A stretch of 64,000 bases of DNA from Flexistipes sinusarabici DSM 4947 (GTDB lineage: Bacteria; Chrysiogenota; Deferribacteres; Deferribacterales; Flexistipitaceae), in the NCBI RefSeq assembly GCF_000218625.1, contig NC_015672.1:310001-374000 (forward strand), given 5' to 3'. The notes under the pieces were generated by a model. That model ran no database searches, was not told the origin of the DNA, and was given only the letters and a program-made list of their open reading frames with translations. Of this stretch, positions 45,257 through 49,297 are shown piece after piece. The position numbers and the translations under genes were made by a program. Each line of letters opens with the position of its first letter. Position 1 is the first letter of the stretch.

Positions 45257-47488
45257 ATGGGAGTCTACGAAAAATTTAAATATCCCGGCGTTAATCTGAA
45301 AGTTGCCATGGAAATGGGACTTAAAGAGGATGAGTATAAAAATGCCTGTGATATATTGGGTCGTGAACCGAATTATATAGAGCTGGGTGTTATTACTGCT
45401 ATGTGGAGTGAGCACTGCAGTTACAAAAGCAGCAAAAAACATCTGAAAAAATTTCCAACAGAAGCTGAGTGGGTTGTTCAGGGTCCCGGTGAAAATGCCG
45501 GTATTATTGAAGTTGACGGTGATATTTGTGCCTGTTTTAAAGTGGAAAGTCACAACCATCCTTCCTACATAGAGCCATACCAGGGTGCAGCTACCGGAGT
45601 GGGAGGAATACTACGGGATGTCTTTACAATGGGTGCAAGGCCGGTGTGCGCAATGAATTCACTGAGATTCGGCCCTTTGAATAATGACGAGAGTGTACAT
45701 TTGTTGGAAGGTGTAGTTTCAGGGATAGCCGGATATGGCAACTGTTTTGGCGTTCCGACTGTCGGCGGTGAAATATACTTTCATGAAACTTATCAAAAAA
45801 ATCCCCTTGTCAACGCTTTTGCCTTGGGGCTTGTGGATAGAGATAAAATTTTCTATGCAAAGGCAGAAGGTAAGGGTAATCCCATTATATATGTCGGGGC
45901 AAAAACAGGTAAAGACGGTATTCATGGAGCCACCATGGCGAGTGAGGAATTCAGCGAGGAGAGTGAATCGAAAAGGCCTAATGTGCAAATTGGCGACCCT
46001 TTCAAGGAAAAACTTCTTCTGGAGGCCTGTCTGGAACTTATGCAGACAGATTATATAGTGGGGATTCAGGATATGGGAGCGGCAGGTCTGAGCAGTTCCT
46101 CTTTTGAGATGGCTTCCAAATCGGATACAGGTGTTGAACTGGACCTTGAAAAAGTTCCTGTGAGAGAAACAGGCATGACACCCTATGAAATAATGCTGTC
46201 AGAATCTCAGGAGAGAATGCTGCTGATTGCTAAGAAAGGTTATGAAAGTAAAGTCAAAGAAATTTTCGACAAATGGGATTTGGATGCCGAGGTTATAGGC
46301 AAGGTAACAGATGACGGTTTCGTCCGATTGAACTGGAACGGCGAGGAAGTGGCAAATCTGCCGGCTAAATCTTTGGCGGATGATGCTCCTGTTTATGATA
46401 GAAAATATGCCGAGCCTGAAAATCAGAGTCAAATAAAGAATTTTGATTTGAGTTCGGTCGATGATCCGGGAGGCTACCCTGCAATTCTGGCCAGAATGCT
46501 GTCTAATCCCAATATTGCATCAAAAAAATGGGTTTACAGACAGTATGATCATATGGTTCAGACAAATACGGTTTTTTTGCCCGGTTCAGATTCAGCACTG
46601 TTGAGAGTAAAGGGGAGCAATAAGGGGATAGCAGTTTCTTCTGACTGTAACGGAAGATACTGTTTTGTGGATCCTTATGAGGGGGGGAAAGCTGCCGTAC
46701 TAGAAAGTGCACTTAATGTAGCGGTATCCGGAGCCCGGCCGAAAGCAGTCAGTGATTGTCTGAATTTCGGCAATCCTGAAAAAGAAGGGGTAATGTGGCA
46801 GTTTGTAAGATCAACGGATGGCATGAGCGAAGCCTGCAAAATACTGAATACACCGGTGGTAAGCGGAAATGTTAGTTTCTATAATGAAACGGAATCAAAA
46901 GCAATTTTACCCACCCCTACAGTTGTGATGGTTGGGGTTTTGGACGATATAAATAAAAGAATCCCATCTTTTTTCAATAAAAGAGGCAGTAATATTATTG
47001 TTGCAGGGAATTTTAACCCTAAGATAGATGCAAGTGAATACCTGTATAAGATTCATAACAAACTTGAGGGAAGTGTAGGTGAAGTTGATCTAAAGCTTGG
47101 TTTGAGATTAATTGATTTTTTAGCAGAAGCAGCAGAAAAGGGTCTTATTTTATCAGCACACGATGTTTCTGATGGCGGCTTGTGTGTTTGTCTGGCTGAA
47201 ATGTGTTTTCACAAAGGGATCGGTGCCAGTATAGATATTAGCAGAGACATACGCACAGATGAGTTGCTGTTTGGGGAAAGTATGCCTTTGGTTTTACTGG
47301 AAGTGGACGATTTGCATTTAAAAGGGGTTGAAAATTTACTCGAAAATAATAATATTCTTTTCGAAAAACTCGGTAAGACAAACGGTGATTTGCTTACAAT
47401 CCGTCATAACGGTCATCTCGTGATCGATGAGAAAGTTGAAGCTGCAGCAGAGGTTTATAATGAGTCTCTCGGAGAATTAATGCAATGA
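45257..47488 (+). CDS. purL: Phosphoribosylformylglycinamidine synthase subunit PurL
   Basis: 743 residues, small-type PurL. Key segments: [72 protein letters not shown], and [21 protein letters not shown]. It converts FGAR, ATP and ammonia to FGAM. The 3' end overlaps purF by 4 bases (ATGA). The ribosome binding site lies in the end of purQ. Confidence 0.97.
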
Positions 47489-48876
47489 TATTTGATAAGT
47501 TTAAAGAGGAATGTGGAGTTGCCGGTGTATACGGTGACAGCGAAGCGGCTAATCTTGTATATCTGTGCCTCTATGCTTTGCAGCACAGAGGGCAGGAAGG
47601 CGCTGGTATTGCTTCCTCTGACGGTGAAAAGATAAACTATGAAAGAGGGCAGGGACTTGTTGCCGATATCTTTTCCGAGGAAAGACTGAGCAAGCTCAAA
47701 GGTGATATGGCTGTTGGACACAATAGATATTCCACGGCCGGAGAAAACCATATAAAAAATACTCAGCCCATTGTTGCTGATATAAGCAAAGGTTCCATCG
47801 CCCTTTCACATAACGGGAATATAGTTAATGCCGATGAGATAAAGCACGAACTTGTGCAAAACGGAGCAATATTTACTTCCACATCCGATAGTGAAATTAT
47901 CATCCATCTTTTGGCAAAAAGTAAAAAGGATAATCTGATAGACGCTATCATTTCCTCTTTGCTAAAACTGAAAGGAGCTTATTCTTTATTGCTTATGACA
48001 AAGGGGACGATGATAGGTGTCCGGGACCCGTTCGGTTTTCGTCCGCTTATTTTGGGAAAAATAAGGACAGGTCACGTTCTGGTCAGTGAAACGTGTGCAC
48101 TGGATTTGATTGAAGCTGAGTTCATAAGGGAAATTGAACCCGGTGAGATGGTGATTATCAATGATGAGGGCATCCGAAGTATTTATCCATTTGAAAAAGA
48201 GAAACCAAAACCCTGTATATTTGAACATATATATTTTGCCAGACCGGATTCTTTTTTATTCGGTACAGATGTTTATTCAGTCAGAAAAAGAATGGGCCAG
48301 AAACTTGCCGAGGAAGCGCCGGTGGATGCCGATGTGGTGATGCCCGTTCCTGACTCAGGGGTTGTTGCAACCCTTGGATATTCTGAAGCCAGCGGAATAC
48401 CTTATGAGCATGGGCTTATCAGAAACCACTATGTCGGCAGAACATTTATAGAGCCTGCCCAGTCCATCAGGCATTTTGGAGTAAAAATCAAACTCAATGC
48501 CGTTAAATCCATAATAAAGGGAAAAAGAGTGATTGTCGTGGATGATTCCATTGTAAGAGGAACCACCAGCAGAAAGATTGTGAAAATGCTAAGGGAAGCG
48601 GGAGCATTAGAGGTGCATTTCAGAATCAGTTCGCCGCCGACAAGATTCCCCTGTTTTTACGGAATTGATACTCCCACCCGAAAGGAACTGATTGCTTCAA
48701 CACACACTGTGGAGGAAATAAGAAAATATATTACAGCTGATTCCCTTGCATACCTGAGCAGGGAAGGGATGTTTGAATGCTCAAGAAACGGCGATTTCTG
48801 TGATGCATGTTTCAGCGGCGATTATCCGACAATATATAAATTTGGTGATGACAGTAACCCAAGAGATGAGGTGTAA
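47485..48876 (+). CDS. purF: Amidophosphoribosyltransferase PurF
   Basis: 463 residues. After a 9-residue propeptide the nucleophile is Cys10 ([11 protein letters not shown]). The Ntn glutaminase domain includes [20 protein letters not shown] and [11 protein letters not shown]. The PRPP-binding loop is [18 protein letters not shown]. Cysteines in FPCFYGID and [17 protein letters not shown] fit the 4Fe-4S cluster of Bacillus-type PurF. It makes phosphoribosylamine, the first step of purine synthesis. The selenoprotein candidate starts 2 bases after its stop. Confidence 0.97.
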
Positions 48877-48878
48877 GA

Positions 48879-49220
48879 ATGGATAAACCGGAAATCAGGA
48901 TTTTTGGCTCAAGTTCCGATTTTGAGTCCGGCTGAAGCCCTTCATATTTTCCCGCAGGCTGCGGGAAGAGCGAAGATCCTTACTTTGAATTTTATGTTGC
49001 TCTGGATGCTTATTTGACCAAGAACGACTGCAGGGATTATGATATAAAATATATTGATATTTCCACACCGGAAGTTTTGGATTATCTGGAGGATGTTAAC
49101 AATATAGTAGAGGGCAGGCTGCCCCTGCCTTATGTTTCTCTGGACGGCAGGCCGTTTTGCTGGGGTATTGAAGATGCCGGTAAAGCATACGAAAAACTGA
49201 AAGAAAAGATATGTCCTTAA
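48879..49220 (+). CDS. Predicted selenoprotein with thioredoxin-like fold (in-frame UGA at codon 19)
   Basis: An ATG 2 bases after purF, with GAGGTG 6 bases upstream, opens a frame of 113 codons that is uninterrupted except for TGA at 48933-48935. Reading it as selenocysteine gives MDKPEIRIFGSSSDFESG-U-SPSYFPAGCGK and on to EKLKEKICP. The start (IRIFG strand, then a redox-active turn) and DYDIKYIDISTPEVLDYLEDV, LPLPYVSLDGRPF resemble YuzD-like thioredoxin-fold proteins; there Cys replaces U. A second Cys lies 9 residues after U. A SECIS-like hairpin follows the UGA. Coding pattern and homology-like features continue on both sides of the UGA. The alternative is a single nonsense mutation. Confidence 0.68.
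48947..48969 (+). promoter_or_regulatory. Candidate bacterial SECIS element
   Basis: Perfect 8-bp stem TTCCCGCA (48949-48956) / TGCGGGAA (48960-48967), loop GGC; a T-G and a T-A pair extend it by two. The loop starts 22 nt after the UGA, within the 16-37 nt range known for bacterial SECIS, and the loop has G at its first two positions, as the SelB-binding consensus asks. Confidence 0.65.
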
Positions 49221-49234
49221 GTTTTAACTATTTA

Positions 49235-49297
49235 AGAGCTTTGAATAATTGAGGAAGTGTGGTCTAAGACTGAGAAAAGCACATTATTCAAGGCTCT
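49235..49297 (+). other. Long imperfect inverted repeat after the selenoprotein gene
   Basis: AGAGCTTTGAATAAT (49235-49249) and ATTATTCAAGGCTCT (49283-49297), 15 paired positions with one G-U, loop 33 nt, no U-tract. It lies in the 244-bp gap before the trmR-like gene. Half of it (AAGAGCTTTGAATAA) recurs at 57275. Confidence 0.5.

Follow-up and report, generated by a model that had tools for sequence, protein, structure and literature searches.

Bacterial selenoproteins are overlooked when UGA is taken as a stop codon and no known family matches. According to the published bSECIS model, the hairpin associated with a recoded UGA is found 16-37 nt from that codon, with an apical loop of 3-9 nt, G in the first two loop places, a stem of 4-16 bp and a minimum free energy (MFE) of <= -7.5 kcal/mol (PMC13188914). 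For most selenoprotein families, cysteine forms are widespread (PMC1794560). The closest described protein family for the locus considered here is DUF1462, which has earlier been placed in the thioredoxin-like clan (PMC3091736).

Comparative sequence analysis of a locus in Flexistipes sinusarabici DSM 4947 suggests that positions 48879-49220 are a genuine selenoprotein gene whose UGA codon is read as selenocysteine (Sec), a reading to which we assign a probability of roughly 0.95. Within the window, i.e. the whole stretch of 64,000 nt that was analysed, the relevant features are as follows.

45257-47488, plus strand: purL, overlapping purF by ATGA and ending in TGA.
47485-48876 (stop codon 48874-48876), plus strand: purF, the upstream neighbour (TIGR01134, 557 bits).
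48868-48873, plus strand: GAGGTG, resembling a Shine-Dalgarno sequence, in the 3′ end of purF, 5 bases upstream of the ATG.
48879-49220, plus strand: putative selenoprotein gene, 113 codons plus a TAA stop (49218-49220).
48933-48935, plus strand: UGA codon 19, almost certainly read as Sec; TGA is kept in the orthologues and in a diverged paralogue.
48940-48975, plus strand: bacterial SECIS hairpin, within the limits of the bSECIS model (PMC13188914).
48940-48943 and 48972-48975, plus strand: lower stem of the hairpin, 4 bp.
48947-48956 and 48960-48969, plus strand: upper stem of the hairpin, 10 bp according to RNA folding.
48957-48959, plus strand: apical loop GGC, 21 nt after the UGA.
48960-48962, plus strand: Cys28 codon, probable resolving thiol (Sec-x8-Cys), conserved in all orthologues.
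49128-49130, plus strand: Pro84 codon (LPLP-YV), a proline invariant in 20 of 20 sequences and probably the cis-Pro of the thioredoxin fold.

The frame is opened by the ATG at 48879 and specifies the product MDKPEIRIFGSSSDFESGU(Sec19)SPSYFPAGC(Cys28)G...LPLPYVSLDG...CWG..., in which no signal sequence is visible by eye. A sequence-only reading of the same DNA had described a single 113-codon frame broken only by the TGA at 48933-48935, a good ribosome binding site 2 bases after purF and a Sec-x8-Cys arrangement. Direct inspection bore out all of this: the TGA is the only in-frame interruption, the ATG lies 2 bases past the purF stop with GAGGTG upstream, and Sec19 and Cys28 are spaced as described. 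A purine-rich, Shine-Dalgarno-like sequence also precedes the start of most orthologues, and the gene is apparently co-transcribed with purF. Just 3′ of it, at 49235-49297 of the window, lies an inverted repeat (AGAGCTTTGAATAAT/ATTATTCAAGGCTCT; 15 nt, 93%) which has no Rfam match and is perhaps a terminator or attenuator.

The same reading had noted a perfect 8-bp stem with a GGC loop starting 14 nt past the TGA, and this stem (TTCCCGCA-GGC-TGCGGGAA) is indeed present. Folding extends it to 10 bp (UUUUCCCGCA-GGC-UGCGGGAAGA), and together with the lower stem the hairpin reaches -18.5 kcal/mol (z = -3.05), a value equalled by one of 200 shuffles. With its 3-nt GGC loop, 10 bp, 21-nt spacing and -14.1 to -18.5 kcal/mol, the hairpin satisfies the bSECIS model; it matches no Rfam model. 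How often such a picture arises by chance was gauged across the window, requiring a loop of 3-9 nt with G in the first two places, a spacing of 16-37 nt and <= -7.5 kcal/mol. Under these constraints, 57 of 2479 TGA triplets (~2.3%) carry a passing hairpin, falling to 0.4% at <= -13 kcal/mol, and 46 of 2481 TGA codons are followed by at least 94 open codons. Given these rates, the single-sequence picture is only moderately unlikely by chance, and it is the comparative data that are decisive.

A search of 100 related genomes yielded 20 full-length loci in 19 genomes, with an order common to all; the family spans seven genera, and the relatives include Calditerrivibrio, Seleniivibrio and Denitrovibrio. 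Querying the genome collection with the single protein returned no match, whereas an alignment query recovered the relatives. Once the loci were oriented, each of the 20 contained exactly one TGA, always at the same codon and in the shared context F-V-S-G-U-x-P-S-Y-F-P-x-G-C-G. The aligned site is thus Sec in 20 of 20 members, and tryptophan occurs at this column in none (0/20). The question raised by the sequence-only reading, namely which residue homologues hold at position 19, is hence answered by a UGA codon, with the starts lying upstream of it. TGA is kept in 19 of 19 sequences, although the adjoining serine and glycine codons vary, taking up to four forms. No TAA, TAG, TGC or TGT was found at codon 19 among the aligned orthologues, contrary to what is expected of a mere stop, which tolerates TAA or TAG, or of a cysteine site. 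Selection at the protein level acts on both sides of the TGA: pN/pS, taken over 13 representative sequences, amounts to 0.23 in the 14 codons preceding it, 0.34 in the next twelve codons and 0.38 in the remainder, with synonymous sites around the TGA being near saturation (pS 0.53-0.78).

The hairpin is conserved along with the codon. Every locus has a 3-nt loop starting with G at a distance of exactly 21 nt downstream of the UGA; three copies that are close relatives also contain this stem-loop, although another hairpin scored better there in the scan. In the hairpin alignment 93% of cells pair, eight cells are changed on both sides, and the covariation score exceeds those of 500 out of 500 shuffles and of all slid controls. 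The coupling is most easily seen between codons +7 and +9, where GCA (Ala) always occurs with the cysteine codon TGC and ACA (Thr) always with TGT, so that a G-C or A-U pair is kept. The third base of codon +7 is A in 19 of 19 sequences, and glycine +10 is encoded by GGG in 18 of 19. Where UCA (Ser) occupies +7, one mismatch is left in the stem, and the upper stem of these Ser copies is weak. Weak upper stems (-4.9 to -6.9 kcal/mol) are seen at six loci in which U is mismatched with U or C, and at another locus (L019) a Pro-to-His change breaks two pairs, leaving -3.6 kcal/mol. Overall, the upper-stem energy misses the -7.5 kcal/mol threshold at seven of the 20 loci tested.

One genome (G024) additionally encodes a diverged paralogue (L022, 1441-1794, minus strand; G024:C2:132646-132975) that is 23% identical to the window protein and retains both SGU and the UGA. 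Its hairpin is wholly different, with the GC-rich stem CGCCCCC-GUG-GGGGGUG, and the loop again lies 21 nt after the UGA. Cys28 is missing from this paralogue, its only absence in the family, so that Sec is conserved more strictly than the second active residue. The paralogue is not located near purF, and its neighbours include genes that are moeA-like by eye.

The host genome (2,526,590 bp) encodes the machinery for Sec insertion: selA (477 bits), selB directly after it, and a tRNA-Sec with anticodon UCA (TCA in DNA), i.e. selC. A further component is itself interrupted by a TGA:

G000:C1:2185607-2186524: selD (L039), AGUAAK, carrying a single TGA in frame, at the canonical Sec site.

This TGA is followed by a hairpin with a GGA loop, 17 nt after the UGA. 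All four sel genes, whose absence the sequence-only reading had named as grounds for abandoning its proposal, are therefore present. None of the formate dehydrogenase alpha-like genes of the genome (L103-L110) contains an in-frame TGA, so that formate dehydrogenase, ordinarily the chief user of Sec, does not occur among these matches in a Sec form and offers no apparent explanation for the Sec system here.

Across 51 Deferribacterota genomes, the gene was found in 19; selA accompanies it in 19 of 19, as against two of the 32 genomes without the gene (Fisher p = 4e-12, ignoring shared ancestry). The two genomes with selA and no gene are G002 and G005. As purF was not found in the former either (88% complete), the region is probably missing from that assembly, while G005 holds both selA and purF and is a real exception, the only clear one. 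Inspection of the purF locus in nine genomes without selA revealed neither a related gene after purF nor a Cys form, and none was found behind purF in G005. Searches that would miss very distant forms detected no Cys form in 385 relatives or among the close matches in a collection of 84,980 species, and two extra, partly overlapping samples (397 and 386 genomes) contained neither a Cys form nor a relative outside the phylum. No relative was found in viral contigs, plasmids or phages. Two weak matches in other phyla (E about 0.008-0.0095, over 31-41 residues) were judged to be due to chance. Where selA is gone, the gene thus seems to have been lost and not converted to a Cys form.

The sequence-only reading had also guessed at a relation to YuzD, and profile comparisons lend support to this. 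Pfam DUF1462 (PF07315, the YuzD family) is matched by 16 of the 20 members (best E 1.3e-5), with the gathering cut-off of 25 bits being passed by the G021 protein alone and the window protein itself giving no match. The family profile finds 1XG8 (Staphylococcus aureus SA0798) at E = 0.001, and hhalign aligns 72 columns (1.5e-5). Single-sequence searches of Pfam, NCBIfam and the PDB with the window protein gave no usable match, and for the family NCBIfam offered nothing better than E = 0.13. In the predicted structure, mean pLDDT is 79, with residues 15-30, the active-site loop, below 50; the top solved match of this model in Foldseek is again 1XG8 (E = 6e-4), at a TM-score of only 0.51. Profiles and model together point to the protein being a remote relative of DUF1462/YuzD with a thioredoxin fold.

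Ribosomes would reach the UGA at codon 19, where SelB carrying Sec-tRNA-Sec would bind the hairpin with its GG(C/U) loop 21 nt downstream, leading to insertion of Sec. Judging from fold and residues, the product is probably a thiol/selenol oxidoreductase, with Sec19 as the likely attacking residue towards a disulfide, selenylsulfide or peroxide substrate and Cys28 as the one resolving the intermediate.

The gene comes immediately after purF, within the pur cluster, at each of the 20 orthologous loci, and the genes further downstream differ between genera. In a second genome of the genus Flexistipes (G001; L091), for example, two extra minus-strand genes (509 and 298 aa) sit between the selenoprotein gene and a methyltransferase-like gene, about 540-2950 bases after the TGA. 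PurF contains four cysteines, C244, C390, C439 and C442, that fit the [4Fe-4S] ligand set of the type represented by Bacillus subtilis PurF. The constant position behind purF and these four potential cluster ligands could be taken to mean that the Sec protein works specifically with PurF or with its Fe-S cluster, serving repair, protection or redox switching, which would refine the selenoprotein reading and not replace it. We regard this refinement as doubtful: a similar PurF is also retained where the gene is lacking, the G024 paralogue resides away from purF, and the operon position may only reflect expression. The synteny weakly suggests a link to purine synthesis, e.g. in keeping the Fe-S enzyme PurF working. 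Similarly tentative is the broader notion of a Sec-only, phylum-restricted and selenium-demanding family, fixed behind purF and equipped with a new Sec-x8-Cys loop, that links purine synthesis or the PurF iron-sulfur cluster to cellular redox or selenium status.

Less probable still is that the protein handles selenium itself, in selenide or selenium oxyanion metabolism or in delivery to SelD, rather than thiols. Such a role would explain both the loss together with selA and the lack of Cys forms, and the strict tie to selA (19/19) speaks for it. However, any selenoprotein gene is expected to accompany selA, G005 keeps selA without the gene, and in the window genome the gene does not adjoin selA, selB or selD.

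We consider it very improbable that the locus comprises two genes and no Sec, i.e. an 18-residue leader ending at the UGA and a separate protein with a later start such as the TTG at 49014. This is what gene callers would give, since 68 aa are open from that TTG, and in other relatives an open frame of ~97 aa follows the TGA. Yet the supposed leader includes 14 codons of a conserved beta-strand and motif under constraint (pN/pS 0.23), the frame is continuous across the TGA in 20 of 20 loci without the stop ever being TAA or TAG, the TTG start would remove Cys28 and the first helix, and the gene disappears together with selA. Decoding of the UGA as another amino acid, be it tryptophan by near-cognate suppression, a kind of read-through known in bacteria, or through a code change, can practically be dismissed, as purL ends in UGA (which is hence an ordinary stop in the same operon), tryptophan is absent from this column in 20 sequences, and a dedicated tRNA-Sec, SelB and a conserved SECIS hairpin are present.

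Returning to the selenoprotein reading, the inventory of prokaryotic selenoproteins from May 2026, which covers 119 families, has no DUF1462 entry (PMC13188914 Table 1), none of the NCBIfam selenoprotein models matches the family, and the main texts of the deep-Sep and ISME 2016 studies do not mention Deferribacter-type organisms. The family is therefore new to the inventory and to NCBIfam and has been missed by gene catalogues. It brings selenium near DUF1462, for which the literature examined reports no selenium use, and a Sec-only family that is lost rather than converted when selA is gone provides a good case for what selenium does beyond sulfur.

Among known selenoproteins, SelD of the same genome likewise combines an in-frame UGA with a downstream hairpin whose 3-nt loop starts with GG, but the two proteins are unrelated and the spacing from UGA to loop is 17 nt in SelD, not 21 nt. 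UXX-star, HUIPC, Sec.1/Sec.2 and other thioredoxin- or glutaredoxin-like selenoproteins are also small thioredoxin-fold proteins with an active-site Sec (PMC13188914), although their listed motifs are UxxC, CxxU, UxxT and the like (PMC13188914 Table 1), as compared to SGUxPS(x5)C here. With DUF1462/YuzD (PF07315; 1XG8; SCOP c.47.1.17) the family shares the proline before the third strand, Pro84 aligning with the Pro of LFYPLI in SA0798. The active sites differ: SA0798 carries CASC, a CxxC site, and lacks the insertion, whereas the new family has SGU (VSGU) and GCG without any CxxC, Sec following the first strand and a loop lengthened by about ten residues ahead of the first helix, with Cys28 at its end. 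Counted from the first strand, Sec19 would correspond to the second cysteine of CASC; if the count runs backwards from the helix, the position of that cysteine would instead lie close to Cys28.
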